From positions 1 through 64,000 of the forward strand of contig NZ_KI518214.1 in assembly GCF_000479045.1 (NCBI RefSeq): 64,000 nucleotides of DNA, read 5' to 3'. Within the stretch, counting starts at the first letter, position 1. Every line of letters starts with the position of its first letter. Position numbers and translations under genes: made by a program. Shown here one piece after another: positions 2,884-21,730 of the stretch. The DNA comes from Cetobacterium somerae ATCC BAA-474 (lineage in GTDB: Bacteria > Fusobacteriota > Fusobacteriia > Fusobacteriales > Fusobacteriaceae). The notes under the pieces are model-generated. The model did not search any database, was not told the origin of the DNA, and saw only the letters and a program-made list of their open reading frames with translations.

Positions 2884-5593
2884 GTGCGAAACGTTTTGTA
2901 GTGAAAAGCTATAACACATTAGTTGCATAAACTAATGGAGAACTGTTAATCCGAGAAATCGAATGATAGGGTAACGCCTTGAAAGGTTTCCTCTGATACT
3001 CCGACATGCATCAAGATACTAACCTATCTTGAGGTATGAAGCTCGGTGAAGTCGGCTGAGAGCCACCCTACACATATCCCTAAAGGAATGTGATGGAAAT
3101 GTGAACTAGAGGTAGTCAAGTGGTGACAGGTCGGGAGTCAATATTATATGGTGAGAATTTCCCTAAAAACAAAAGGGAATGACAAAGTTGCGAATGTAAG
3201 GGTCTAGACGAGAACATACAGAAATGTATGTGCCGTAAAAAAGCGGTGTGACTGTGGATTAGTAAGAATCGGTGCTATGAAACTCCATATATCCTAACAG
3301 GGGATATCAAGGTTACAGGCTCATAGTAACCACCTAAGTAATATTAACGATAGGATTAACGGAACGTTGTAAGCAAGATACAACTAGCAGAAATTGGTTA
3401 GAACGGTTGGTGCATATAAGTATCCCGAGGATACGAAATTGCTTTAATCTTGTGAAAGTAGGGGCACAGTACCTATGAAACCATGATAATAAGTGGTGGA
3501 GGGATAGCCCCAAGTCAATAATAATATTAAAATCTAATTAACGAAATGATATTCGGTTGCGTGTAAGACTAAGAGAAGTAAGTACCCTAACCAGGAGGAA
3601 AACTGACGAATACTGCGGAAATACGAAAGAAACAGAACCTTAGAAATAATGAATATTACGATATGCAAAAAATCTTTGACAAACTTTACAAACAAAGTGT
3701 AAATGGCAAATCTTTTACGAAACTTATGGAAATTATCTCGAATGAAAATAACATAAAACTAGCCTACAGAAACATTAAAGCTAATGGTGGAAGCCGTACT
3801 GGTGGAACCAATGATAAGACCATAGTAGATATAATGGATATGAAAGCAGAGGATTATGTTAGATACATTCAAGCAAGGCTTAAAAACTATGAACCACACG
3901 AAGTAAGAAGGGTACATATTCCTAAAGGAGATACTGGAAAAACTAGACCGCTTGGCATACCTACCATTGAGGATAGATTACTACAACAATGTATAAAACA
4001 AGTAATAGAACCTATTTGTGAAGCCAAATTCTATAATCACAGTTATGGATTTAGACCAAATAGAGGTGCGAAACATGCAATATCTAGAATGTACTTCCTT
4101 GCTCAACGTAATAAATTGAACTATTGCGTAGACATAGACATAAAAGGATTTTTTGATAATGTACACCACCCTAAACTACTAAAACAAGTGTGGTCTATGG
4201 GAATAAAAGATAAAAACCTACTATGTGTAATCAAAAAGATGTTAAAAGCTCCCATAGAGAATGAAGGAATACCCAGTAAAGGAACACCACAAGGTGGGAT
4301 ATTAAGTCCACTCCTATCAAATATAGTTCTCAACGAATTAGACTGGTGGATATCTTCACAATGGGAAACCAAGACGTCGGTATATAAATACAAACTTGCA
4401 CGAAATAGACTACAAATGTTAAAACAAACCAAATTAAAGGAAATCTACATTGTGAGATATGCGGACGACTTTAAAATAATGTGTAGAAGTAAAAGAGATG
4501 CTAAAAGAATATTCATAGCTGTAAAACAATGGTTAAAAGAAAGACTGTATCTTGATATTAGCGAAGAAAAGTCAAAGATAGTATGCCTAAATAACGGATA
4601 TTCAGAGTTTCTAGGATTCAAAATCAAAACTAGAAAAAAGAACAACAAGAGAGTAGTAACATCACATATGAGTGATAAAGCTAAAGAGAAAACAATTAAA
4701 GACCTAAAAGAACAGGTAAAGAGAATAAAGAAAAATCCTACTGTTAAGAATATTAATAGGTGGAACGCAATGGTACTAGGGAAACAGAATTATTACAATT
4801 CCGCCACTCTTATAAGCCTTGATTTCTCAAAAATTGGATACTCACTCTCTAAATCTTTGCACAACCGACTAAAGAATTTATGCTCCTATCAAGGAACTAA
4901 ATCCGAAACATTTATGAGATACTATGGAGAATATAATTTCAAAACCCAATATATATCAGGTACAGCCCTATTTCCTATAGCAGGAATCAAAACTAGACCG
5001 CCAATGAACTTCTCACAAGATATTTGTGATTATACAATAGGTGGAAGGGCTAAAATCCATACGAACCTATTTACAGTAGATATAAGAATATTACGTAATT
5101 TATTAGCCAACCCCATACAAGGTCAAACCAATGAATACAACGATAATAGACTATCACTATACTCAGGACAAGGTGGATTATGTAGAATATCTCAAATACC
5201 TTTAAAACTTGGTTACATGGAAACTCACCACCTAACACCTAGATATCTAGGAGGTGGAGATGAATATAAGAACCTAGCTTTCATACATAGTTATGCACAC
5301 AAGGTTATCCACTGTACCAAGAAAGAGACATTCCTAAAGTATATAAAACTATTGGCAAAAGAAATAATATTTTACAACATAGATGATTCTAAAAGTGAAA
5401 AGATAAAGTCTGAGGAACTAATACTAAATCTAACGGAAAAAATAAAATACTATCGTATAAAAGCAGAAAATTTCGTTTTAAACTAAGATAAATAGATTAT
5501 TATTGATGGAACGCCGTATGAGGTGAAAGTCTCACGTACGGTGTGGAGCAGGGGAAAAAGCCGAGATAATATCAGAACTTTACCTATTGCTAT
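2884..5593 (+). mobile_element. Group II intron with LtrA-like maturase
   Basis: A complete group II intron of 2710 bp. The 5' end is GTGCG at 2884-2888, matching the GUGYG consensus. Domain V is the hairpin at about 5511-5544 (GCCGTATGAGGTGAAAG, then CTCACGTACGG). Domain VI follows, with a bulged A at 5586, seven nt before the 3' end AT at 5592-5593. The stretch 2889-3662 holds the structured domains I-IV, and the intron-encoded protein sits in domain IV. Boundaries are also fixed by the host frame, which rejoins without a stop. I could not assign EBS/IBS pairings with confidence. The HNH-bearing maturase suggests a DNA-invading, retrohoming-competent intron. Confidence 0.92.
3663..5486 (+). 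CDS. ltrA: Group II intron reverse transcriptase/maturase
   Basis: This 607-aa multifunctional intron-encoded protein helps the intron splice and copies it into DNA. The order is RT domain 0 and fingers (NIKANGGSRTGG, IPKGDTGKTRPLGIPTIEDR, about 37-105), palm (SYGFRPNRGAKHAI, GFFDNVHH, GTPQGGILSPLLSNIVLNEL), the catalytic YADD at 266-269, a maturase X/thumb domain (about 330-470), and a C-terminal HNH endonuclease (ETHHLTPRYLGGGDEYKN through HKVIHC, about 515-560). All catalytic motifs look intact, so the element may be active. The architecture fits bacterial chloroplast-like (IIB) maturases; the class assignment is inference. Confidence 0.93.
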   Translation: MQKIFDKLYKQSVNGKSFTKLMEIISNENNIKLAYRNIKANGGSRTGGTNDKTIVDIMDMKAEDYVRYIQARLKNYEPHEVRRVHIPKGDTGKTRPLGIPTIEDRLLQQCIKQVIEPICEAKFYNHSYGFRPNRGAKHAISRMYFLAQRNKLNYCVDIDIKGFFDNVHHPKLLKQVWSMGIKDKNLLCVIKKMLKAPIENEGIPSKGTPQGGILSPLLSNIVLNELDWWISSQWETKTSVYKYKLARNRLQMLKQTKLKEIYIVRYADDFKIMCRSKRDAKRIFIAVKQWLKERLYLDISEEKSKIVCLNNGYSEFLGFKIKTRKKNNKRVVTSHMSDKAKEKTIKDLKEQVKRIKKNPTVKNINRWNAMVLGKQNYYNSATLISLDFSKIGYSLSKSLHNRLKNLCSYQGTKSETFMRYYGEYNFKTQYISGTALFPIAGIKTRPPMNFSQDICDYTIGGRAKIHTNLFTVDIRILRNLLANPIQGQTNEYNDNRLSLYSGQGGLCRISQIPLKLGYMETHHLTPRYLGGGDEYKNLAFIHSYAHKVIHCTKKETFLKYIKLLAKEIIFYNIDDSKSEKIKSEELILNLTEKIKYYRIKAENFVLN

Positions 5594-6804: not shown

Positions 6805-7013
6805 ATGAATAAAGTTATATCAGCAGAAAGTATCACATGCCTTGGCACTAAAGATATCCAAGTAGACATTACGAGGGATGGATTTGTGGTAAATATTATA
6901 GCTTGGGGAGAAAAGAAGCTAAAGATATAAAGGAACTAGAAGAGCTACTAAATGAATTCAATGTACAGCAATACATAATAAATGAGATAAAGGAGAGGAT
7001 AGCCAATGCCTAA
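6805..7013 (+). pseudogene. Small protein gene, split by a one-base frameshift
   Basis: From the ATG at 6805 (SD GAGGAGAG) the frame stops at 6928-6930 after 41 codons. A second open stretch in another frame (EAKDIKELEELLNEF through IKERIANA) runs to a stop at 7011-7013, overlapping the next gene's ATG at 7006. Adding one A to the AAAA at 6911-6914 would fuse both into one protein of about 69 aa ending in an amphipathic helix. The stop/start overlap with the next gene suggests that the longer product was the original. It could be a real frameshift, a sequencing error, or slippage. Family unknown. Confidence 0.5.
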
Positions 7014-7638
7014 TTACTGTTTTAATAGAATAAAGCTAAATGTAACACAAGAGGAGTTAGAGAAAATAAAAGAGAGAGTTATGTCTAAAGATGAATTTGG
7101 AGATGGATATTTTGATTTCAATAAAGTTATGAAAAGACCTAAAAATATGCTCTTAAGAGCTTTTAAGGCTAATACTTTAGAAGCTTTCAGTAAATATTAT
7201 TATGAGAACCCAGATAAGCTAGAACAAAAGCTATTGGATAGCATTATTGGAAATGAGATTCTGAAAGTAAAAATTAAAGGAAAGCTAGTAAATATAGACC
7301 GTTATGTAGATGAAAAATATTCACATGAGGAACTAAGAAGCTATACAGGAGAAAAGTTAATACTATGGTATGACTGGTGTATAAATAACTGGGGAACTAA
7401 GTGGAACTCTTTATTTTCAGGAATAACAAAAGAGGAGTTATTATTTAATACTGCTTGGAGTCCAATATCGCTAAAGCTATTTGAAGGATTTATACATATT
7501 TGTAAAGAGATAATAGGAGAAAAAGCAAATGACATCTGGCTATACTATGAGGAGTGTGGATTTAATTTATATGGCAGATATTATATATTAGATGGAGAAG
7601 TAATTCATGACTATGATTACAAGAAAGAGGTAGCATAA
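7006..7638 (+). CDS. YubB/Api92-like (DUF1281) protein
   Basis: A 210-aa protein whose first residues (MPNYCFNRIKLNVTQEEL) match the MPNWCxNxxxI opening of the YubB ferredoxin-like / Api92 family seen on plasmids and phages. The matching end of the family (NTAWSPIS, WLYYEECGFNLYGRYYI) is also present. The biochemical role is unknown. The gene starts inside the tail of the previous frame (overlap) and is followed without a gap by a 46-aa ORF. Its presence supports a plasmid/phage origin for this block. Confidence 0.7.
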   Translation: MPNYCFNRIKLNVTQEELEKIKERVMSKDEFGDGYFDFNKVMKRPKNMLLRAFKANTLEAFSKYYYENPDKLEQKLLDSIIGNEILKVKIKGKLVNIDRYVDEKYSHEELRSYTGEKLILWYDWCINNWGTKWNSLFSGITKEELLFNTAWSPISLKLFEGFIHICKEIIGEKANDIWLYYEECGFNLYGRYYILDGEVIHDYDYKKEVA

Positions 7639-7779
7639 ATGTATGAAATTATAGTTACGATAAAAGGAGAAGAGTATAGTTTTGGAGAGTTCAATAGTAA
7701 AAAAAGAGCTGAAAGTTTCCTAGAAAATCTATATGAAACTAAAGAGATAGCTAGTGATGCAGAAGCATGGATAGAATAA
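7639..7779 (+). CDS. Small 46-aa protein
   Basis: The ATG at 7639 follows the previous stop with no gap (TAAATG), and AAGAGG lies just upstream. The acidic product (MYEIIVTIKGEEYSFGEF through DAEAWIE) looks like a folded mini-domain: two strands, then a helix. A terminator follows, making this the last gene of the transcript. No family is recognised. Confidence 0.55.
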   Translation: MYEIIVTIKGEEYSFGEFNSKKRAESFLENLYETKEIASDAEAWIE

Positions 7780-7792
7780 TCGTATATAAATC

Positions 7793-7829
7793 AATGGGTA
7801 GTGTTAAAGACTATCCATTTTTATTTTTT
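7793..7829 (+). terminator. Rho-independent terminator
   Basis: Stem AATGGGTAGT / ACTATCCATT (one G-U pair) with loop GTTAAAG, followed by a long T-rich tail. Confidence 0.75.
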
Positions 7830-7960
7830 AAAAGTAGAAATAAAAATACAAAAAAAGTTTCTATTTATATAACCAAATATAGAAAAATCATATGTATTTA
7901 AAAAGTTTAGATAACGTTATATAATAAAGGGATTTACAAAATACATTTGGGAGGTTGGAA

Positions 7961-8464
7961 TTGAAGAAAAAAATACGAGTACTAGTTCCAACTTTTATAT
8001 TGGAAACTTTGGAAAGAGATTGTGAATTCTTTGGAATTACAAAGGAAAAACTATGCAATGAGATATTTTTAAAATTCTCTTTAAAATTTAGATCAAGATA
8101 CCAAGACGACATGATGTTTGAAAATAAGGAGTATTTACAATTTACCTTGAATAAAGCGAATCAAAGATATTATACAGATTTGCTAAAAGAGTTACCTGAA
8201 GCGAATGACTCAGAGATAATAAGGGAGATATTTTCAACATACTCAGTCTTAGTAGCATTTTTAAGAGAGATTTATCTTTTTAGAGAAAAAATAATATTTT
8301 TATACTCATCTTTAAAAGAGTATAGGGTTTTAAAAATTGATACTCATCATGGAGTAATTGAAGGAAGGATAACTAAAATATATCGTTGCCAAGAAAACAA
8401 CTATCTAAAAATTGATATTGAAGAGCAAAGTTATTATGTAGGTCAAATAAGAGTTATATCTTAA
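7961..8464 (+). CDS. Putative ribbon-helix-helix-type DNA-binding protein
   Basis: A 167-aa protein starting at TTG (7961), chosen because TGGGAGG ends 6 nt upstream; the in-frame TTG at 7955 would overlap that SD. Residues 3-40 (KIRVLVPTFILETLERDC, then FFGITKEKLCNEIF) read as a beta strand and two helices, like a MetJ/Arc repressor. The C-terminal 45 residues look like a small beta-barrel. It begins a new transcript after a terminator and sits before the secreted cassette, so it may be that cassette's regulator (inference). The family is not certain. Confidence 0.5.
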   Translation: MKKKIRVLVPTFILETLERDCEFFGITKEKLCNEIFLKFSLKFRSRYQDDMMFENKEYLQFTLNKANQRYYTDLLKELPEANDSEIIREIFSTYSVLVAFLREIYLFREKIIFLYSSLKEYRVLKIDTHHGVIEGRITKIYRCQENNYLKIDIEEQSYYVGQIRVIS

Positions 8465-8485
8465 AAAAATATGGAGGGATTTAAA

Positions 8486-9019
8486 ATGAAAAAAATGTTA
8501 GTAGCATTAAGTATTTGTGTAGGTCTTTTAACAGGATGTACTGGAGGTTCAGATTCAGATTATATTGAAACTGTAAAACAACTATCTTTTGACAATGGTG
8601 TAATAGTAGAAAATATTGTGAGAGAAAAATTAACAGGAGCAGAGTTTCAAGGCTTAAATGGAGACAAAGTCCGAATTGATAAGGGGCTAGCAGTATTTGA
8701 TGGAACAGGAGCATATATTTTTCTATTAAAAGGTATGGAAGGAAAAATTCAAGAGTTAGCATCAAATGCAAGTGTTGTACCAGTAGTTATAGGAAGTAAT
8801 GATATAAAATGGGAAGTTGAAGGAGAGACAAAAAAAGGTAAGATAATTAAGGCTAAAACAGAAAAAGCAGTAGTTAAAATATCAACTGAGCAAGATGGAG
8901 ATTATATTAAGTTATATTCAGATAGTATAAAAACATTTAATGGGAAAACAGGAAAAGCAATATCAGATAAAGAGTTGAAAAATTACAATCAATTAAATAA
9001 TATGCTGATGGCTGAATAA
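8486..9019 (+). CDS. Secreted lipoprotein of unknown function
   Basis: A 177-aa protein whose start (MKKMLVALSICVGLLTGC) is a classic lipoprotein signal with lipobox LTGC, so the mature protein would be anchored by Cys18. The rest is beta-rich with no recognised domain (EGETKKGKIIKAKTEKAVVK). The ATG at 8486 has GGAGGG 8 nt upstream and gives a proper signal peptide, so it is preferred over a start at 8471. It is the first of four tightly spaced genes whose products are all exported or in the membrane. Confidence 0.7.
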   Translation: MKKMLVALSICVGLLTGCTGGSDSDYIETVKQLSFDNGVIVENIVREKLTGAEFQGLNGDKVRIDKGLAVFDGTGAYIFLLKGMEGKIQELASNASVVPVVIGSNDIKWEVEGETKKGKIIKAKTEKAVVKISTEQDGDYIKLYSDSIKTFNGKTGKAISDKELKNYNQLNNMLMAE

Positions 9020-9033
9020 GAGGAGGAGAAAAA

Positions 9034-9534
9034 ATGAGAAAAGCGATTGTACTATTATTAGTAATGCTATCTATGGCAATTTATGGAGAAGAGATTGAGT
9101 TTTCAACTTTGAAAGAAAGTAATGGAATCTATTATTCAAATGGACAAAAGTTTACAGGAAAAGCAGTAATAAAATCTCCAGATGGTAAAATAGTAAAAAT
9201 GGAAGAGTTTAAAAATGGTGAAAAAGATGGAATTATAAAAGTGTATTATACAAATGGTAATTTAAAATTTGAAATAGAGGTTAAGAAAAATAAACAAGAG
9301 GGAATAACTAAAACATACTATGAAAGTGGAAAATTAGAAGGTAAAATGCAATTTACAAATGGAGAATTAGATGGGGATGATATTTCATATTATGAAAATG
9401 GACAAGTTAAATCTAAAGCTAAATATGAAAACGGAAAACTTAATGGAAGAATGAAAATTTATAACCCCAAAGGAAAAATTATAAGTGAAGGTATTTTTGA
9501 AAATGGAGAGCTTATATCTGAGGTAAAATATTAG
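9034..9534 (+). CDS. Secreted MORN-repeat (YwqK-like) protein
   Basis: A 166-aa protein with an N-terminal signal peptide (MRKAIVLLLVMLSMAIYG) followed by about five tandem MORN_2-type repeats of 20-24 residues (FKNGEKDGIIKVYYTNGNLK, YENGQVKSKAKYENGKLNGR). The family is widespread in Fusobacteriaceae and includes the YwqK-type antitoxin-like proteins, whose repeats form a binding surface. It is 14 bp downstream of the lipoprotein gene with a strong SD. Possibly it binds or neutralises a partner encoded alongside (inference). Confidence 0.75.
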   Translation: MRKAIVLLLVMLSMAIYGEEIEFSTLKESNGIYYSNGQKFTGKAVIKSPDGKIVKMEEFKNGEKDGIIKVYYTNGNLKFEIEVKKNKQEGITKTYYESGKLEGKMQFTNGELDGDDISYYENGQVKSKAKYENGKLNGRMKIYNPKGKIISEGIFENGELISEVKY

Positions 9535-9549
9535 GAAGGAGACTAAATT

Positions 9550-10086
9550 ATGAAAAGAATAATAGTATGTGTTCTAGTTATAATATCCACACTATCTTAC
9601 AGTGAAGGACAAGCTAAAAAAAGAGTTGGTCTTTTGTCTGAAAAACAAATGGAAAGTTTGAAAGAAAAAATGAGTAACCTTTTTTCCAAAGAGGATAATT
9701 TAGATCAGATGATAACTAAACTAAAAAAAGGTGAATTAGGTTATAAAGCTATTTCAACAGAAGAGAATGAAAACTCTTTAAAAATGAAGTTTGTAGTAAA
9801 TGACAAAGTTTTACACTACGTTATTTATAAAAATAAAAAATCGTATGAAAAAGATTTAAATAGCTTTCTAAAAGACGATTTCTTTACGCATCTAAAAGAA
9901 GAGTCTTTTGATAAAAACTATAAATTAATAATGCTAGATCCAGTTATATCATCTCCTACATATGGAAAGTGGTATGCTATTGTAGGGCAAAATCAAATTA
10001 TAAAAGCATCTGGAGACGATTTTGATTCAGCTAAAACTAACATTGATGAATTTTACGATAGATTGAAAAAATTAGGAGGAAAATAA
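9550..10086 (+). CDS. Secreted protein of unknown function
   Basis: A 178-aa protein with a short signal peptide (MKRIIVCVLVIISTLSYSEG). It is lysine-rich and helical, with no recognised motif. It lies 15 bp after the MORN-repeat gene and one base before the next ATG, so the four-gene cassette is clearly an operon. It may be a periplasmic effector or partner of the MORN-repeat protein; there is no direct evidence. Confidence 0.6.
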   Translation: MKRIIVCVLVIISTLSYSEGQAKKRVGLLSEKQMESLKEKMSNLFSKEDNLDQMITKLKKGELGYKAISTEENENSLKMKFVVNDKVLHYVIYKNKKSYEKDLNSFLKDDFFTHLKEESFDKNYKLIMLDPVISSPTYGKWYAIVGQNQIIKASGDDFDSAKTNIDEFYDRLKKLGGK

Positions 10087-10087
10087 A

Positions 10088-10456
10088 ATGGGAATCTGGA
10101 TATTTGTATTATCTTTAATTGGTGCTGTTTTAGCTTTTGTACAAAACGATATTTCAACTACAGGGATGGCAATATATATAGCTATAACTATTTTATTAAT
10201 AAATGTAGCTATGGGAAACATAGCTGAAGTTATTAGGAGAACATGTTCACCAGATACAGTTTATTATAATAAAACATCTGAACTGATAAAAACGAAAATA
10301 TTTTGGAGTGTGGGAATTCATGCAGGAGCAGTGTTTTTGGGAACATTCTTTGGATTAGGAATACTTGTACGTTTTAATTGGTGGCAAATTTTAGTAGTAC
10401 TAATACTAGCAGTAGTAATAGCTTTAGTTTGTGGAGCGATGAATCAACAAGATTAA
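10088..10456 (+). CDS. Integral membrane protein, about 4 TM segments
   Basis: A 122-aa very hydrophobic protein with membrane segments near residues 3-20, 25-45, 73-92 and 96-116, and a short polar loop (RRTCSPDTVYYNKTSE). No family is recognised. It is the last gene of the secreted cassette, starting 1 nt after the previous stop, and is followed by a strong terminator. Confidence 0.6.
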   Translation: MGIWIFVLSLIGAVLAFVQNDISTTGMAIYIAITILLINVAMGNIAEVIRRTCSPDTVYYNKTSELIKTKIFWSVGIHAGAVFLGTFFGLGILVRFNWWQILVVLILAVVIALVCGAMNQQD

Positions 10457-10465
10457 TAAGAGTTT

Positions 10466-10498
10466 AAAAGAGAAGTCCTTAAAAACTTCTCTTTTTTG
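10466..10498 (+). terminator. Rho-independent terminator
   Basis: An 11-bp stem AAAAGAGAAGT / ACTTCTCTTTT is followed by TTTTG. It ends the secreted cassette operon. Confidence 0.85.
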
Positions 10499-10505
10499 TT
10501 TAAAT

Positions 10506-10578
10506 CCATTTAAAGTCTCTAGTTATGGTATATTCACTACATAATACTAGAACGTCGATTGTAGGGTACTTTAAATGG
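10506..10578. repeat. Nested inverted repeat just past the putative rep gene
   Basis: Outer arms CCATTTAAAGT (10506-10516) and ACTTTAAATGG (10568-10578) are perfect complements 51 nt apart. Inside them CTAGTTATG pairs with CATAATACTAG, apart from a 2-nt bulge. No T-run follows on either strand, so it is not a terminator. Its place beside the stop codon of the minus-strand putative replication gene suggests an origin, a nick site or an RNA structure. Confidence 0.5.
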
Positions 10579-10605
10579 CTTTATAGGGTATTTTAATAGT
10601 AGATT

Positions 10606-11628
10606 CTATTCAAACTTATAATATTCAACTAAGCTCTTTGCCATTTTAATAAATTCTTTGTCAGCATCAATATGACATCCATAAAACTCCATGTGTCGTT
10701 CTTTAACATACTCTTTTATTCTTTGAAAAGCTGTGTCATAAGAAGAAGATTTTGAATAAAATTTCTTGAGAGCTATTTTTAAGCTTTTTAAAGTAAATTT
10801 ACAATTATATTTTTCAGCTATTAATAATCTTTTATTTTTATAGTTCTTTAAATGTTTAAGCCATATTTTAGATTCATTTATTTGAATATCCGTCAATAAA
10901 TCACCAAACTCTAAATTTCCTCTTTCAGAAAGTTTAGCATCAAATAAATTTTTAAATAGGTAATTTAAATAATCATCCTTATATTCATTAAAAATATCAA
11001 AGTCAATAAATTCATCCAAAGTCATAGGGGCTCGTTTAATTCGCTTTGATACCTCTATTCTAATTCTTCTAGGTAAATCAGGGTGGTTTTTAAGTATAGA
11101 TTTATAGTTGTAGTTATGAGAATCCTTAAACCTCTTGTCTTGATTATAAATAACAATCTTGCTATTGCAATTTTTTAAAGTAGTAGAGTTAGCAAAAGTT
11201 AAAGTTTCTATTTTATCTTCTGTAAATTCATTAATAGATTTAACTAAAAAGCTCTCATTATTTTTAGCAAAAATTTGAGCCATTTTATAAAAAATATGCT
11301 TGTACCCTGAGAACTTCATATTTTTAGGCATATAATATGTGAATGGAATATCAACTCTTAAAATTCTAATTTCTAAATCCTCCTTTGGTCTAAGTTTGTT
11401 TAAAATTCTATAAATTTTATAATTGCACTCATGTGGAATGTTACTATCCATAACTAAGTAAGCATTACTGTCATCCATAAATTTAGGGTATGAAATTTTA
11501 AGGATAATAGCATTATCCGAATCCCTTTTAGCTCTAGTCACTTTTAAAAATTTATGTCGCTCAATTGATTTAATCTCCTTGTCTGTAAATTTTGCTTCTG
11601 ATTTAATTTTGATGCTTATTGTATCCAT
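10606..11628 (-). CDS. Putative phage/plasmid replication initiator (gene II/X-like)
   Basis: A 340-aa basic protein. Two short segments recall the filamentous phage gene II/X (Phage_CRI / Phage_X) rolling-circle initiators: LRILRVDIPFTYYM near 90-100 and LPRRIRIEVSKRIKR near 195-205. I cannot place the catalytic Tyr with confidence. It is the only minus-strand gene in the left island and is flanked on both sides by strong inverted repeats, as expected for a replicon. AGGAGG-like bases (TCGGAGG) precede the ATG. Alternatives are a plasmid Rep of another family or an uncharacterised phage protein. Confidence 0.4.
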   Translation of the reverse strand: MDTISIKIKSEAKFTDKEIKSIERHKFLKVTRAKRDSDNAIILKISYPKFMDDSNAYLVMDSNIPHECNYKIYRILNKLRPKEDLEIRILRVDIPFTYYMPKNMKFSGYKHIFYKMAQIFAKNNESFLVKSINEFTEDKIETLTFANSTTLKNCNSKIVIYNQDKRFKDSHNYNYKSILKNHPDLPRRIRIEVSKRIKRAPMTLDEFIDFDIFNEYKDDYLNYLFKNLFDAKLSERGNLEFGDLLTDIQINESKIWLKHLKNYKNKRLLIAEKYNCKFTLKSLKIALKKFYSKSSSYDTAFQRIKEYVKERHMEFYGCHIDADKEFIKMAKSLVEYYKFE

Positions 11629-11670
11629 AAAAACCTCCGATTATTTTGTATTCAAAGTATTGTTATGGTT

Positions 11671-11712
11671 TTTTAACAAAATAAAAAAACCGCTCATCAA
11701 GTGAGCAGTTTT
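11671..11712 (-). terminator. Minus-strand terminator in the leader of the rep-like gene
   Basis: On the minus strand a stem AAAC.GCTCA / TGAGC.GTTT is followed by TTTTTTTATTTTG. The T-run is on the minus strand only. It lies about 45 bp upstream of the start of the minus-strand gene, so leftward transcripts from 11.7-12.6 kb would stop here unless anti-terminated. Confidence 0.7.
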
Positions 11713-11883
11713 CAAAAATGGAATTTTGATATAAAATTAATAAACCTTGATAAACCCCTCTAAAACCTTGTATAACAGCCAAAGTGGTAAAAGTAAAAAA
11801 TATTTTTAAAAGTTTTAAAATCAACTCACTATAAATCAGTGTACATATAATTATAACTAAACATACAAATCATAGTTAATATT

Positions 11884-11983
11884 AATAATAATTATTGCTG
11901 ATACCTTAGTACAGCAATAAAGGAATTGCTAGAGACACGTAGTACTAAAACGCAGTGGCGATATAGCAATTACGATTATTATT
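11884..11983. ncRNA. Three-way-junction element, copy 1
   Basis: Outer stem AATAATAAT (11884-11892) / ATTATTATT (11975-11983) encloses two hairpins. Hairpin A is ATTGCTG / CAGCAAT with loop ATACCTTAGTA (11901-11911). Hairpin B is AATTGCTA (11924-11931) / TAGCAATT (11964-11971), with a large loop containing AGTACTAAAACG. The loops can pair: TTAGTAC of loop A is the perfect complement of GTACTAA in loop B. The strand of function is unknown; it could act as RNA or as ssDNA. See copy 2. Confidence 0.5.
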
Positions 11984-12041
11984 ATATATCTTAATAAACT
12001 AAATTAAAGTTCAAGATTTTTTAATTTGAGATAATTATATA

Positions 12042-12083
12042 TAATCTAGTGACAATTCCCGAAGGGGATTGGAACTAGTATTA
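12042..12083. repeat. Hairpin between the two junction elements
   Basis: CTAGT / ACTAG encloses CAATTCCC-GAA-GGGGATTG, an 8-bp stem with one T-G pair and a 3-nt loop. It is G/C-rich for this region. It has no clear T-run on either side. Confidence 0.5.
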
Positions 12084-12122
12084 ATATAATATATATAATA
12101 ATATAGATATAGTATATTTTAC

Positions 12123-12231
12123 TTATAATAATTATGTTAATACCTTAGTATTACATAATAGTGATTTACGTATAGTGTTATGGAGTACCAAACGTAATAA
12201 CACACTCTTTTAGTAAATCACGGTATTATAA
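12123..12231. ncRNA. Three-way-junction element, copy 2
   Basis: Same architecture as copy 1, with different stem sequences. The outer stem is TTATAATA (12123-12130) / TATTATAA (12224-12231). Hairpin A is ATTATGT / ACATAAT around the same loop core ATACCTTAGTA (12140-12150). Hairpin B is GTGATTTAC / GTAAATCAC (12161-12169, 12213-12221), with an inner stem GTGTTAT / ATAACAC and loop GGAGTACCAAACGTA. Stems differ while loops are kept, which is the signature of a selected structure. Confidence 0.5.
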
Positions 12232-12549
12232 TAAAATCTTAATGAAATAATACAAGAATAGAAAAACATTCAAATCTCTATTTAAAAGCCAAAAATAAGC
12301 ACCTATGGATATTTTACCAATAAAGTCCATGAAGTCGATTTAAACCCACTTTAAATCAATTCTAGAGGCATTATTTTAACAACTAGCCAGTATATTTAAA
12401 ATATAAAATTCAATTGAAAAAGCATTAGATTTTAACAACAACATTTTGTAATTAAGAAACACATTTAGAATTGTCAAATAAGAGAATAAGAAAAACCAAG
12501 ACTTCAAGATGTTATGATATATGTATAAATTATACTGTATCTTATTAAG

Positions 12550-12578
12550 TTATTACCTATACAAAGTATAGGTAATAA
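12550..12578. repeat. Perfect 13-bp inverted repeat with AAA loop
   Basis: TTATTACCTATAC / GTATAGGTAATAA, 13 bp without mismatch around AAA. It lies between the junction elements and the HU promoter. It may end rightward transcription weakly, bind a dimeric protein, or belong to the replication structures. The bases between 12232 and 12549 show nothing I can name. Confidence 0.6.
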
Positions 12579-12656
12579 AAATATATTTGTCAAGGTTAAA
12601 ATAATGAAAAGTATGTTATTTTATTTTTGATGGAAATTTATAATTTATAGAATCTC

Positions 12657-12685
12657 TTGAAAAAACTAAAGTTATGAACTATACT
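12657..12685 (+). promoter_or_regulatory. Sigma-70-type promoter of the HU gene
   Basis: TTGAAA at 12657-12662, a 17-bp spacer, and TATACT at 12680-12685. The ATG follows about 40 nt downstream of the -10 with SD AAAGGGGAG. Confidence 0.65.
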
Positions 12686-12726
12686 CTAGTAAAAATGTTA
12701 AACTAACTAATAAAGGGGAGATAACT

Positions 12727-13005
12727 ATGACTAAACAAGAGTTTATAGCTTTATATCAAGAGAAAATGGAAATAACAGGAAAGAAGGAAGCTGAGAGATT
12801 AGTAAATGGATTCTTTTCAACTATAGAAGAGGTTTTAGTAAAAGGTGACGATTTATCGGTATTAGGATTTGGAAAATTTGAAACTACAACTCAATCAGCA
12901 AGAACTTGTAGAAATCCACAAACAGGAGAAGAAATAAAAGTACCAGAGAAGAAAGTAGTTAAATTTAGAGTTGGGAAAAGTTTAGCTGAAAAAGTAGCAA
13001 AATAA
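12727..13005 (+). CDS. hup: HU-family DNA-binding protein
   Basis: A 92-aa nucleoid protein that bends and compacts DNA as a dimer. The family pattern is clear: N-terminal helices (TKQEFIALYQEKMEITGKKE), GFGKFE, the DNA-binding arm with the NPQTGEEIKVPEKK segment, and the C-terminal helix KFRVGKSLAEKV. Length is normal for HU. It has its own promoter and terminator, so it is a single-gene unit. HU often helps replication and transposition of mobile elements, so its place beside the rep-like locus may be functional (inference); it could also be a chromosomal paralogue. Confidence 0.93.
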   Translation: MTKQEFIALYQEKMEITGKKEAERLVNGFFSTIEEVLVKGDDLSVLGFGKFETTTQSARTCRNPQTGEEIKVPEKKVVKFRVGKSLAEKVAK

Positions 13006-13016
13006 TATATTTATAG

Positions 13017-13052
13017 AAATAGTTGGTATGTGATGTATCAACTATTTTTTTA
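13017..13052 (+). terminator. Rho-independent terminator of HU gene
   Basis: Stem AAATAGTTG / CAACTATTT followed by TTTTA. Confidence 0.8.
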
Positions 13053-13132
13053 TTGCAGATTTAATGAAAAATGAGTTAATATAAAGGACAATCTAATTTT
13101 ATATTCATTTGAATAACTAAATACTAAAAGAG

Positions 13133-13162
13133 TAACAGAGCTAGAACTCTGTTATTTTTTTA
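13133..13162 (+). terminator. Terminator-like hairpin before the lipase operon
   Basis: TAACAGAG / CTCTGTTA with a CTAGAA loop and a T7 tail, 28 bp before the first start codon of the next operon. No gene lies between it and the HU terminator, so it may be an attenuator in the leader of the lipase operon. Confidence 0.6.
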
Positions 13163-13189
13163 GTAATTAAAGAATTGAAAGGGGTATTT

Positions 13190-14071
13190 ATGACAAAGAA
13201 TAGAAAAATTTTGATAGGAATAATTGGAACTGCTCTTTTTGGAATAGTTTTTTCATTTATTCAAAAACCTCTCAATAATAGAAAAGTATTGAATGTAATA
13301 CGAAAAGAAATCCCAGATGATAACTTTTATTTTATTAGAGGATTAGATAGAGATAGAAGTTTAAGTACAAATATACGATATAGGGGTATTGTATATAGTG
13401 ATAAGTTAAAACAAGCTGAATCTTTTAGTGGTATTCAAGTTGCTTTGGAAGATATGGACGAACTGTGGAAATATAAAGAATCATTTAAAAGACAATATGA
13501 AGGAGCATTAGCTTATCCTTTAGCAACAGCTCCAATGAAGGAGAATGCTAAAAAAATATTTGGTAATGATATTATAGTCTATGTGGACTTTCCTATGATT
13601 TGGGATTTAAAAGCTCAAACAGAATTTGTAGAAAATAATATAGGAAAAGAAACAGATCAAATAGCCAATATGACAGGATATATAGATGTATTTGTTGATG
13701 ATATTACAAAAGTGGATATTGATGAATATAAAAAGAAACTTTTTGATCTTCATCAAACTTTATATAAAACTTATCATATTGACGCAATACTTTATATGAA
13801 TTTAAGAGATAGAAAATATTTAACTTATGAAAAAATAGACTCTAATATATTTTATATTTTTAGAAACGAACCTAAAGTAATAGAATTATTAAAAAAATAT
13901 AAGGAAAATGGGAATTTAAATGTCGTTGAAATTGGATATTTAACAAATTATTTTGTAGCTCCGTTTAGAAACTACACGCTTCCTAGAATAAAATTTGAAA
14001 TTACATACAAACGAAATGATTATAAAAAAGTTAATGTTATACTTCCAAAGGAGATGAAAAAAAATGATTAA
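13190..14071 (+). CDS. Membrane-anchored protein of unknown function, upstream of lipase
   Basis: A 293-aa protein with one N-terminal membrane segment (about residues 8-26, ILIGIIGTALFGIVFSF) and a large outer domain rich in Tyr, Lys and Asp, with no recognised motif. The ATG at 13190 (SD AAAGGGG) is preferred over a TTG at 13175. Its last 8 bases overlap the start of the lipase gene (ATGATTAA), so the two are translationally coupled. That coupling and the single membrane anchor fit an immunity or partner protein for the lipase, but this is inference. Confidence 0.6.
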   Translation: MTKNRKILIGIIGTALFGIVFSFIQKPLNNRKVLNVIRKEIPDDNFYFIRGLDRDRSLSTNIRYRGIVYSDKLKQAESFSGIQVALEDMDELWKYKESFKRQYEGALAYPLATAPMKENAKKIFGNDIIVYVDFPMIWDLKAQTEFVENNIGKETDQIANMTGYIDVFVDDITKVDIDEYKKKLFDLHQTLYKTYHIDAILYMNLRDRKYLTYEKIDSNIFYIFRNEPKVIELLKKYKENGNLNVVEIGYLTNYFVAPFRNYTLPRIKFEITYKRNDYKKVNVILPKEMKKND

Positions 14072-15863
14072 AGATATTGAATTTGCTTTCTTTTCACAAT
14101 TATCATATTTGAATTGGAATAATTTAAATAATATTGATTTCAAAACTATTGAATCTTACAAGGATAAAAAATTTATGAGTTTTTTAAATAGTGATGATAT
14201 TTGGAATGAAATAAAAATAAACAATTTAGAACCTATAAATTCTCCTAATGGGATTCCTATGTATCAAGAAGAAGACAAAAGACTTTTGGGAGTTTTTGGA
14301 ATAGAAACTGAGTCCGTTATAGATGAAAAAAATAAAAAGCAAACTAAAATAAAACCTTTATATAATTTTGATGGATGGCAATTTATATACAGTGCTGATA
14401 AAACAAAATTATACAAAGATAAATATAACTTAGATGATGTTGAGGATGATGGATTTTTTGCGTGTGCTTTTATGAAAGATGATGATATTGTTATTGCTTA
14501 TCGTGGTACAGAAATAACAATAAAAGATTTTTTAACTGATTTAGAAATTGGATTTTTAAATAATAATCACTCTCAATTAGTTAGCACACATCTTTTTTTA
14601 GAATATATAAAATCACTTTATCCAAATGTTGCAGATAATAATATACATTTAACAGGACATAGTTTAGGTGGATGTCTTGCTCAATATGCTTTTATTTCTA
14701 GTGATAAAAAACATAAAACGATTACATGGAATGCATTAGGAGTTGGAAAATACCGAAATATTTTTAAAATAACTGCATTAGAAGCAAATGAAAACACTAT
14801 GAGTTATTTAAAAAAATTATCGAATCATCTTCATATTACAGAAACTGCTCAAAAAATTGTAAGTGAATTTATTACAAAAGATGAGAATATTATGTTAAAA
14901 ACAGAAGAAGAGGATAAAATAAAATTATATAATATAATTAATAATGGAATTCAAAGAAATCCATTTTATGAAGTTGATTTAAACTCTAAAATTAAATCAA
15001 TTTCTTTAGACATTTATTGGTATTTTAAAAGTGTTTTCAAAATACAAAGTTCTCTAAATAAAGCTTCTGAAAATATAACAAATTATTTTAACGCTTTAGA
15101 TTGGACAGCTAATATTCAAACAAGAGAAGGACGTTGTATTGAGGTTTTAACGGGAACTGAAGCTTCAAATGAATCAACTAATGATACAATGAAAAGAGTA
15201 ATATCTGAAATGTGTAAACTAAATTTAGTTGATATTAAGTTTAATGGAATTAAATCTCCAGAGGTCAAAGTTTTTCCTTACCACGGTGTTAATGACTTCT
15301 TATTATATATGGATTCTAACGGTATGATTCAAGCAGGAAAATATAATATAATCTTTACTAAGAATTTAGTAAAAACTTTATATAACTATGTTAAAAAAAC
15401 CGATTCCAAAAGAAAAGGTACTGATAAATATTTGGATATATTTGTTAAAGGAACAAGCAATAAAACTGAACAAGTTAAACCCTTTGATAAGTTTCATATG
15501 ACTTGTAGTAGGGCGAAACTTTTTGGTCCTAAAATATCAATCATTAGTGAAGCAAACGTTAAATATGTAACATCAGCTATTGAATCTTTAAAACCATGTG
15601 TTGAAGAATATATTAATTATAGGGAATACTCAAAAGAAGAAAAAGAAAAAAATTTTCCAGAAATAGCGGTTTATACAATCGGTCATTTGTCAAATGTGGA
15701 TAATTTAGCAGGGATACAAGGTGGAGAACCTACACAACTTATAAAAATAGAGAAACCTGAACCAAAAGAAGAGGAGCCAGTTGCTAAAGTACAACCAAAA
15801 GAAGAAGATAAATATACAATTAAAGAGGGAAATGCAACTGTAACAATCCATCATTTATGCTAA
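14064..15863 (+). CDS. Lipase (class 3)-domain protein, possible toxin/effector
   Basis: A 599-aa protein with a class 3 lipase alpha/beta-hydrolase fold. AYRGTE at 145-150 forms the oxyanion-hole side, and GHSLGG at 198-203 is the nucleophile elbow (Ser200). A later His in FPYHGVNDF is a candidate catalytic His. No signal peptide is visible, so export would need a dedicated route or the enzyme acts inside. The C-terminus has a Pro/Glu/Lys linker (KPEPKEEEP, VQPKEED) and ends in TVTIHHLC. Uncoupled lipases of this type are often antibacterial or phospholipid-degrading effectors; the flanking uncharacterised genes are then candidate partners. Base composition matches its neighbours. Confidence 0.75.
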   Translation: MIKDIEFAFFSQLSYLNWNNLNNIDFKTIESYKDKKFMSFLNSDDIWNEIKINNLEPINSPNGIPMYQEEDKRLLGVFGIETESVIDEKNKKQTKIKPLYNFDGWQFIYSADKTKLYKDKYNLDDVEDDGFFACAFMKDDDIVIAYRGTEITIKDFLTDLEIGFLNNNHSQLVSTHLFLEYIKSLYPNVADNNIHLTGHSLGGCLAQYAFISSDKKHKTITWNALGVGKYRNIFKITALEANENTMSYLKKLSNHLHITETAQKIVSEFITKDENIMLKTEEEDKIKLYNIINNGIQRNPFYEVDLNSKIKSISLDIYWYFKSVFKIQSSLNKASENITNYFNALDWTANIQTREGRCIEVLTGTEASNESTNDTMKRVISEMCKLNLVDIKFNGIKSPEVKVFPYHGVNDFLLYMDSNGMIQAGKYNIIFTKNLVKTLYNYVKKTDSKRKGTDKYLDIFVKGTSNKTEQVKPFDKFHMTCSRAKLFGPKISIISEANVKYVTSAIESLKPCVEEYINYREYSKEEKEKNFPEIAVYTIGHLSNVDNLAGIQGGEPTQLIKIEKPEPKEEEPVAKVQPKEEDKYTIKEGNATVTIHHLC

Positions 15864-16602: not shown

Positions 16603-17355
16603 ATGATTGATAAAGTTGGATTTGAATTACTCAAGAGAATGTTAGGACCGGGAGCAGATGCTTTTGGTGAAAATTTTGGTATAATGATAAAAGGACTGAC
16701 TATTGGAATGGCATTTTGGGGGGAAGGAAGAGTAGCAATTTATGAAGAAAAAATGAAGGAATTTTTAGAACAGACTAAAGTTAAGAAAAGTAAAATTAAC
16801 AAAAAAACTGATCCGGATATAAATATAGCAGGTCCAGTTTTTGATGCAAGTTTTTATTATTTTGATAAAAAGTATTATAGAGAGTTATTTTCAAATTTAC
16901 TTGCAAATGCATCGAATGAGGAAAAACAAAATATTATTCATCCATCCTTTGTGGATATAATCAAACAATTATCACCATTGGAGTCTAAAATATTAAATAC
17001 TTTTTCAAAATCTTTCATGAGTTGTTATCCTTTAGCTATATTTAAAGGATTTGATTCTAAAGGACGGGTAACTCCGTACTATACATATTTTATTGATTTT
17101 TTAGAAGAGAATTCAAAATTTGGAATTAACGATACAGAGAGATATCAAATTTCAATTGAAAATTTAGTAAGGTTAGGATTGTTACAAAAGAGGAGCGATA
17201 TAATACAAGCAAATTATGATTATAATAAATTTAAAAATAATTTAAGATATAAAGTGATTGAAGTAGAGAATCCTAATGAAATATTAAAATTAGAAAGGTA
17301 TAGAATAGAATTGACTTTACTAGGAAGAGATTTCGTAGAGTGTTGTTGTAAATAA
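16603..17355 (+). CDS. Abi-alpha (DUF4393) protein
   Basis: A 250-aa protein with the DUF4393/Abi-alpha pattern: INIAGPVFDASFYY, then YRELFSNLLANASNEEKQ, then HPSFVDIIKQLSPLESKIL (about 75-140). Family members have been linked to abortive infection, which stops phage spread by killing or arresting the infected cell. A short hydrophobic stretch lies near residues 30-40 (KGLTIGMAFWGEG). SD GAAGGAGG is strong. A tiny SD-preceded ORF (MINIK, 16511-16528) lies between it and the previous gene; it may be a leader or a remnant. It ends the lipase-to-Abi group at a terminator. Confidence 0.8.
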   Translation: MIDKVGFELLKRMLGPGADAFGENFGIMIKGLTIGMAFWGEGRVAIYEEKMKEFLEQTKVKKSKINKKTDPDINIAGPVFDASFYYFDKKYYRELFSNLLANASNEEKQNIIHPSFVDIIKQLSPLESKILNTFSKSFMSCYPLAIFKGFDSKGRVTPYYTYFIDFLEENSKFGINDTERYQISIENLVRLGLLQKRSDIIQANYDYNKFKNNLRYKVIEVENPNEILKLERYRIELTLLGRDFVECCCK

Positions 17356-20743: not shown

Positions 20744-20784
20744 AAAAGCAAGCATTCTAAATTTTTTTAGAGTACTTGCTTTTT
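20744..20784 (+). terminator. Rho-independent terminator
   Basis: AAAAGCAAG / CTTGCTTTT extended by a second imperfect stem TCTAA / TTAGA. It ends the RES-like operon. Confidence 0.8.
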
Positions 20785-20824
20785 ATGATTTGTACTTTTA
20801 TGAGAATCCTCTCTTTTTTTGACA

Positions 20825-20845
20825 TAGCTAACAAGTAGCTAACAA
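20825..20845. repeat. Tandem 10-bp direct repeat TAGCTAACAA
   Basis: TAGCTAACAA occurs at 20825-20834 and again at 20836-20845, one helical turn apart. Such repeats resemble integrase arm-type sites or element borders. No integrase gene is present in the window. Confidence 0.45.
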
Positions 20846-20890
20846 TTAATAAAATAGACCATTGATAAGACTTGTAAATAAAAGGAAGTG

Positions 20891-20941
20891 TTAAAAAGAA
20901 AAATGACCGTCCATATCGTAGTGCATTATTAATTTTCTCAT
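20891..20941 (-). CDS. 16-aa minus-strand peptide
   Basis: On the minus strand an exact AAGGAGG precedes ATG, followed by MRKLIMHYDMDGHFSF and a stop. The SD is among the best in the window, and the peptide is His/Asp/Met-rich. It may be a leader peptide or the remnant start of a decayed gene. Confidence 0.4.
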   Translation of the reverse strand: MRKLIMHYDMDGHFSF

Positions 20942-21021
20942 ATTTCCTCCTTTTGATTAATTTACTTTAATATAATACCTTCTTTAGTTAAATTTATCAA
21001 TTATATTATTCTAAAAAATAA

Positions 21022-21060
21022 TAAGAACCTCTGGGGGGAAGAGGTTCTTATCTGGGGGGG
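21022..21060 (-). terminator. G-run hairpin; terminator on the minus strand
   Basis: TAAGAACCTCT / AGAGGTTCTTA, an 11-bp perfect stem with loop GGGGGGA, is followed on the plus strand by a second run, TCTGGGGGGG. Read on the minus strand, C-runs precede and sit in the loop and a T-rich tail (TTATTTTTT) follows, so it can terminate leftward transcription. No minus-strand gene ends here. G-runs are striking in such AT-rich DNA. Confidence 0.55.
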
Positions 21061-21187
21061 ATTAAATTATTTACTACTTTTTAACACTTATTTATAATAT
21101 TTAGACTGTGGATTTTATAAAAAAGTTTTAAAATCTATAAAATTTAAACTTTTAGTGAATTTTTGTTTCGAAATACTCTTTATTTCG

Positions 21188-21210
21188 TACTTTTTTTCTC
21201 AAAAAAAGTA
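21188..21210. repeat. Perfect hairpin TACTTTTTTT-CTC-AAAAAAAGTA
   Basis: A 10-bp inverted repeat with a 3-nt loop in the gene-free border region. It is almost entirely A/T and could be a weak structural signal or chance. Confidence 0.35.
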
Positions 21211-21280
21211 TATTGTTTTTTTTAGGCTTTTAGATTAAAATATAGTCTATTGCTTAATTAATTGATACTAATAAAAATAG

Positions 21281-21412
21281 AGTTGGATTTAGTTTGACTA
21301 TATCGCATGTGCATTTTTTATTTTTAAATATACTTGAATTAAGTGATTTATAATTTCAATATTAAGCATTAAAGAGAGTAAGTTGGGTTTAGTTTAACTA
21401 TATCGCATGTGT
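21281..21412 (+). ncRNA. Two copies of a 32-nt motif, 100 bp apart, each before a terminator-like tail
   Basis: Copies at 21281-21312 and 21381-21412 differ at only 3 of 32 positions (core ACTATATCGCATGTG identical). Each is followed by a plus-strand T-run. The second sits in the loop of AGAGAGTA / TACTCTCT plus TTTTTTA. The first has a weaker AAAAATA / TATTTTT stem. This looks like a duplicated small RNA with a conserved exposed loop. The remaining bases between 20945 and 21730 hold no gene that I can support. Confidence 0.5.
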
Positions 21413-21730
21413 ACTCTCTTTTTTATTTTAGAAATTTTTACTAAACTCCAAAAAGGTAAAACTATATATATTGATAGTTAAAATAAATACTATAATTCAA
21501 ATAGTTATGTAAAATAAGTACTAAAACTAAGAGTCATATTTTTAAGAACAAAAGTCTATAAAAATGACTTCCTAATTTTAAATTTAAGAGGTATCTTTAA
21601 AAATTACCTGATTAGTATATAGGTTGTTAAAAAATGCAATGTGAAGTGATATAATAAGAAATAAAGCCCTTGAAAATATTGTATTACAAAAGGGGTTATA
21701 ATATTAAAATAGTTAAAAAAGAGGTGGATT

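Follow-up and report, generated by a model that had tools for sequence, protein, structure and literature searches.

Two tandem three-way-junction copies upstream of a predicted rolling-circle initiator gene in Cetobacterium somerae as a possible DNA-level accessory origin

Single-strand origins (sso) are large folded single strands of flexible position, about 160 nt in the case of ssoA, and a dso is often found upstream of rep (PMC5703833). Here we describe a structured locus in Cetobacterium somerae, within a 64-kb stretch of DNA that was analyzed as a whole and is called the window below. Two copies of a folded element lie directly upstream of a leftward gene for a predicted initiator (10606–11628), in the noncoding gap between that gene and a rightward HU gene (12727–13005). 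No open reading frame of at least 50 aa overlaps either copy, in agreement with an earlier note on this DNA that had placed nothing coding over them. A three-way-junction fold and the same loops are common to both copies, whose starts are ~239 bp apart, and the layout is the same in each: an outer stem, hairpin A directly on the outer stem, and a longer hairpin B.

11883–11984, + strand: copy 1 of the three-way junction (sequence, folding, strict scan, covariance model)
11884–11892/11975–11983, + strand: outer stem of copy 1, with an extra pair 11883/11984
11893–11919, + strand: hairpin A of copy 1, with a bulged A at 11901 and the loop CTTA at 11905–11908
11924–11971, + strand: hairpin B of copy 1, with stem 11924–11931/11964–11971 and AGTACTAAA at 11941–11949
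11988–11998, + strand: ATCTTAATAAA, 3′ flank of copy 1, common to copy 2 and resembling the loop A motif (sequence)
12123–12231, + strand: copy 2 of the three-way junction (sequence, folding, strict scan, covariance model)
12123–12130/12224–12231, + strand: outer stem of copy 2
12131–12159, + strand: hairpin A of copy 2, with a bulged T at 12138 and the loop CTTA at 12144–12147
12161–12221, + strand: hairpin B of copy 2, with stem 12161–12169/12213–12221
12175–12203, + strand: inner 7-bp hairpin inside hairpin B of copy 2, with AGTACCAAA at 12184–12192
12236–12246, + strand: ATCTTAATGAA, 3′ flank of copy 2 (sequence)

The folding energy of copy 1 lies beyond that of dinucleotide shuffles on both strands (z −4.6/−3.7), as does that of copy 2 (z −2.8/−3.2). 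With DNA energy parameters the stems of the outer arm, hairpin A and hairpin B persist and the interior of B alters. Under strict criteria (three stems of 7 or more contiguous Watson-Crick pairs, linkers of at most 5 nt and a first inner arm of at most 45 nt), a scan matched only the two copies in the 64-kb window (Markov controls, 0.03 per window); when the intergenic region was shuffled 2000 times, 11 shuffles contained one match and none contained two. Under a looser inner-arm limit, chance alone yields roughly one match per 100 kb in AT-rich DNA. The proposal of two copies with one three-way fold is thereby borne out. The copies are a diverged duplication, still ~85% identical on the 5′ side (by eye), and the loop-A-like flank ATCTTAATRAA common to both (11988–11998 and 12236–12246) implies that the duplication extends beyond the folded part.

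The AGTACYAAA assigned to hairpin B is present as a fixed loop in both copies, and copy 1 does contain the reported ATTGCT repeat. For hairpin A, the core ATACCTTAGTA is common to both copies as claimed, but it is mostly stem rather than a free 11-nt loop: in the fold, CTTA forms a tetraloop closed by an apical stem of 3–5 bp, TAC/GTA in copy 1 and AATAC/GTATT in copy 2, which stands above the one-base bulge. A kissing contact between the loops had also been suggested. The TTAGTAC/GTACTAA complement is real in copy 1, because loop B contains the TTAGTAC of loop A in inverted orientation, but it is not a conserved feature; the copy 2 version has one wobble and one mismatch, and the match competes with the apical stem of hairpin A. 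The inverted TTAGTAC of copy 1, together with a similar TCTTAATA in the 3′ flank, related to it and found 3′ of both copies, could mark duplex protein-binding sites, operator- or iteron-like, for Rep, a recombinase or another regulator, with the foldback incidental. We consider this very improbable, as such sites do not account for the stems outside the motif, which stay complementary.

A covariance model built from copy 2 alone found copy 1 at 40.9 bits (E ~1e-6), versus 11.7 bits (E 0.017) when the same sequence was modeled without pairs, a gain of ~29 bits from structure. Among 32 aligned pairs, 13 are the same, 3 are broken and the other 16 show two-sided changes; there are no one-sided changes. 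These counts come from an alignment fitted to structure and hence biased in favor of kept pairing. A shift of register lies behind some AT-only changes in the outer stem and the base of hairpin A, but at least 7 two-sided changes swap G-C and A-T and cannot be accounted for in that way (alignment columns 15/31 in hairpin A; 41/102, 45/98, 46/97 and 47/96 in hairpin B; 61/82 and 63/80 in the inner hairpin). All of the covariation comes from the two copies of a single genome.

The earlier note took these stems to be under selection for pairing. Pairing is indeed kept despite changed letters, but selection is not the sole reading, because perfect palindrome arms can also result from template switching, a mechanism documented for hairpins (PMC8794818). 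The copies would then be an old quasi-palindrome duplication of no selected function, its arms kept perfect by template-switch correction and its loops left alone. Two-sided changes lacking a one-sided or G-U step are the expected product of that process, and no relative has kept the element. However, the same three-stem layout, the near-identical loops and the common 3′ flank suggest constraint beyond arm correction, and the gap's other spacers have diverged; we judge this explanation unlikely.

All 64 pairs across both copies are Watson-Crick, with no G-U, and the two strands fold about equally, as expected of DNA. The following features surround the copies.

11685–11713, − strand: intrinsic-terminator-like hairpin in the rep leader, a possible attenuator (terminator scan)
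12043–12083, no strand assigned: CTAGTGACAATTCCCGAAGGGGATTGGAACTAG, a strong hairpin separate from both copies and lying between them (z −4.6; equalled by 0 of 200 shuffles)
12550–12578, no strand assigned: palindrome TTATTACCTATAC AAA GTATAGGTAATAA (sequence scan)
12565–12593, − strand: promoter-like TTGACA-17-TATACT, leftward through both copies (11/12 consensus matches)
12727–13005, + strand: gene for an HU-type DNA-binding protein, which also adjoins the rep family in loci L010 and L021

A leftward transcript from 12593–12565 could include the two copies, within a structured leader or as a separate RNA, to control rep, and would end at, or be attenuated by, the terminator at 11713–11685 before rep, like pT181 repC. 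Leader attenuation does control pT181-type rep (PMC5703833), the leftward promoter-like site matches at 11 of 12 positions, the rep leader contains a good intrinsic terminator (2 terminator-like sites in the region against 0.2 expected), and the three-way junctions persist when the whole leftward transcript is folded. However, with a second promoter-like site, at 11879–11850, the start of rep would lie downstream of copy 1, and promoter-like sites in the region are, in total, no commoner than in shuffles. The stems devoid of G-U also speak against RNA, and the match to ctRNA_pT181 is weak (24 bits, gathering 56), at chance level and on the rep strand rather than the countertranscript strand. 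Overall, an RNA role appears somewhat unlikely.

The gene next to the copies was characterized by structure prediction and alignment.

10606–11628, − strand: gene for a 340-aa protein with a predicted rolling-circle initiator (Rep_trans/pT181-type) fold and Y161 invariant in its family (predicted structure, alignment)

Its predicted structure (pLDDT 81) displays the two TBP-like sheets of the RepDE/RepSTK1 fold. The closest chains were 4cwe (Z 10.3), 4cwc (9.9) and 4cij (8.4), over ~185 residues, with the next unrelated chain at 6.2, in a comparison that re-aligned and re-ranked Foldseek's own candidates, Foldseek alone giving nothing at E 0.001 or better. TBP chains rank after the RepDE-type initiators, and the RepDE authors likewise saw a resemblance to TBP. 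The PF02486 profile matched neither the protein nor 12 relatives, so we do not file it as a Rep_trans sequence member; an hhalign comparison of its family profile with one true Rep_trans protein was negative, and the family has no Pfam or NCBIfam family and no convincing PHROG match. About 14 relatives occur in the same family of genomes, mostly 24–30% identical over their length. The motifs RVDIPFT, IYNQ and RRxRIExS are conserved in 13 aligned sequences, where Y161, a candidate for the catalytic tyrosine that would nick DNA, is invariant within YNQ; the motif in Rep_trans proteins is YxK. These proteins constitute a sequence-orphan family in Fusobacteriaceae with a predicted RepDE-like fold, and a shared fold by itself shows no function for the 340-aa protein. 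One 51-kb contig (L074, ~7000–15000) carries two initiator-like genes, one intact and the other broken by stop codons.

Eight sister rep genes (loci L007, L008, L009, L012, L013, L015, L017 and L021) have, 30–90 nt upstream, a hairpin whose ATTTCAGTGAG-like foot is fixed and whose interior varies, the foot variant in L017 being TTTTCAGTAAG; a ninth locus, L014, is a near-duplicate of L012 and was not counted. G-T pairs are very few in these hairpins. The ATTTCAGTGAG-foot hairpin, which was not found in the window or in L010, L018 and L019, is the likely origin hairpin, serving as nick or binding site, of the initiator-like family. Its presence at eight sister genes indicates that DNA hairpins are usual upstream of rep in this family. 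Neither the covariance model nor a folding scan found the three-way junctions at any sister rep locus, and in the folding scan three-way junctions were no commoner than in reversed sequence. L080 and L021 have different hairpins at the place of the 12550–12578 palindrome. From rep to the hairpin on the HU side the window is ~660 bp longer than L021 and L080, and the three-way junctions are located within this extra DNA. Together with the missing junctions at sister loci, the extra ~660 bp means that the copies may be an unrelated insertion.

Searches for homologues covered RNA families, the host genome, other Fusobacteriota and viral sequences. Rfam covariance models gave nothing at gathering score in the region and, over the copies, nothing even at E 10, consistent with the earlier statement that no described family has this shape. 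The host genome yielded only these two copies when further ones were sought as for a REP/MITE-like dispersed repeat, and the loop pair was not found in 97 other Fusobacteriota genomes. A covariance-model search of 98 Fusobacteriota genomes recovered copy 2 only; it missed the known copy 1, so its negatives are weak and diverged relatives could escape. Pattern searches returned 6 GTDB and 12 IMG/VR matches, none with the same fold. One of them, L095 in a Spirochaetia MAG, has both loop motifs, an 8-bp outer stem and a model score of 20.2 bits; we attribute it to chance, since it had been selected on the exact pattern, its hairpin A is preceded by a 7-nt gap and a proper hairpin B is missing. 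The remaining 5 matches in genomes and all 12 in viruses fold differently and were likewise set aside. Of 94 IMG/VR matches to a pattern of loop A and 3′ flank, 80 were scanned with the model, the best (16.9 bits, E 2.3) being at chance level, and further IMG/VR patterns gave nothing. An absence of homologues with covarying stems had been named as evidence against the element. The outcome is divided: a third copy was found nowhere searched, while the two copies themselves covary.

Mobile-element-type genes in the window's first 18 kb encode Rad52-like, Gp157, DUF4942 and RadC proteins, alongside a group II intron. This intron and its maturase (2938–5593) lie between a methyltransferase-like ORF and the DUF4942 ORF, and a C. 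somerae plasmid has a stretch 84% identical to the region. An Abi_alpha protein at 16603–17355 has a second match, to PDC-S47, a candidate defence family in PADLOC. Intergenic segments at 20780–21710 belong to a dispersed repeat family, partly hairpin-forming, that recurs at 71–96% identity on both strands and in many places, both elsewhere in the host genome and across almost every genome of the genus. Several described identities for the copies were set aside. A filamentous-phage origin was dropped because phage genes of that kind were not seen in the neighborhood. Integron attC sites were dropped because an integrase was not seen and because it is the loops, rather than the stems, that keep a fixed sequence. 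A retron or type III toxin-antitoxin RNA lacks a partner gene here: the group II intron (3663–5486) supplies the sole reverse transcriptase that was seen.

Our preferred reading is that the copies are DNA-level accessory origin sites, single-strand-origin-like, of a rolling-circle-type mobile element. We give it a probability of about 0.35, no higher because two copies, in one genome, do not discriminate between it and the leader-RNA and template-switching readings. The predicted initiator would nick the element and one strand would be peeled off, whereupon each copy, presumably single-stranded at that stage, would fold into its three-armed shape. The two fixed loops (CTTA capped by TAC/GTA, and AGTACYAAA) would thus be presented to a reader protein, and the most likely role would be to start second-strand synthesis, perhaps by priming, or to hold the initiator. 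In favor of an accessory origin are the predicted initiator fold and conserved motifs of the neighboring protein, the position of the copies directly upstream of its gene, the hairpins usual at sister loci, and stems that are Watson-Crick throughout and fold about equally on both strands. Against it, the sister loci lack the junctions and the window lacks their ATTTCAGTGAG foot, the neighbor's sequence has no match to PF02486 or another family, and no known sso motif was recognized in the copies. TAGCG, the conserved ssoA loop motif, is present in neither (read from sequence). In an sso, RNA polymerase recognizes the folded single strand and primes the second strand from it. More broadly, the three-way junction, two fixed loops and tandem use might define a class of folded ssDNA element, which would be a landing site, in replication or priming, for divergent sequence-orphan rolling-circle initiators, although we regard such a class as quite improbable.

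If the copies are an origin module, they link an undescribed Fusobacteriota group with the Rep_trans fold to structured DNA and offer a testable origin for replicons of a phylum with few genetic tools. The copies also provide a clean test case for the source of two-sided stem changes, be it selection or template switching.

Four described systems bear comparison. The Frpo/ssi ssDNA promoters of conjugative plasmids are folded ssDNA, as proposed for the present copies, and can be multi-copy (PMC11541004), but here there is no clear −35/−10 in a stem of both copies and no conjugation genes were seen nearby. The countertranscript/attenuator leader of pT181 similarly places a terminator hairpin in the leader of a gene for a Rep_trans-fold protein, whereas these copies are upstream of a likely rep promoter and the Rfam ctRNA match is far below threshold. 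The single-strand origins ssoA, ssoU, ssoT and ssoW are likewise noncoding, fold as single strands, measure ~100–160 nt and are flexible in position (PMC5703833), although no sso signature is recognized here and the present element consists of two tandem copies with fixed loops. Finally, the dso of pT181-type (Rep_trans) plasmids, whose initiator binds and nicks a cruciform hairpin there, pairs DNA hairpins or a cruciform with an initiator of the same predicted fold; in contrast to that dso, which lies inside rep and is built of simple inverted repeats, this locus has two three-way junctions ~250–600 bp upstream of rep.
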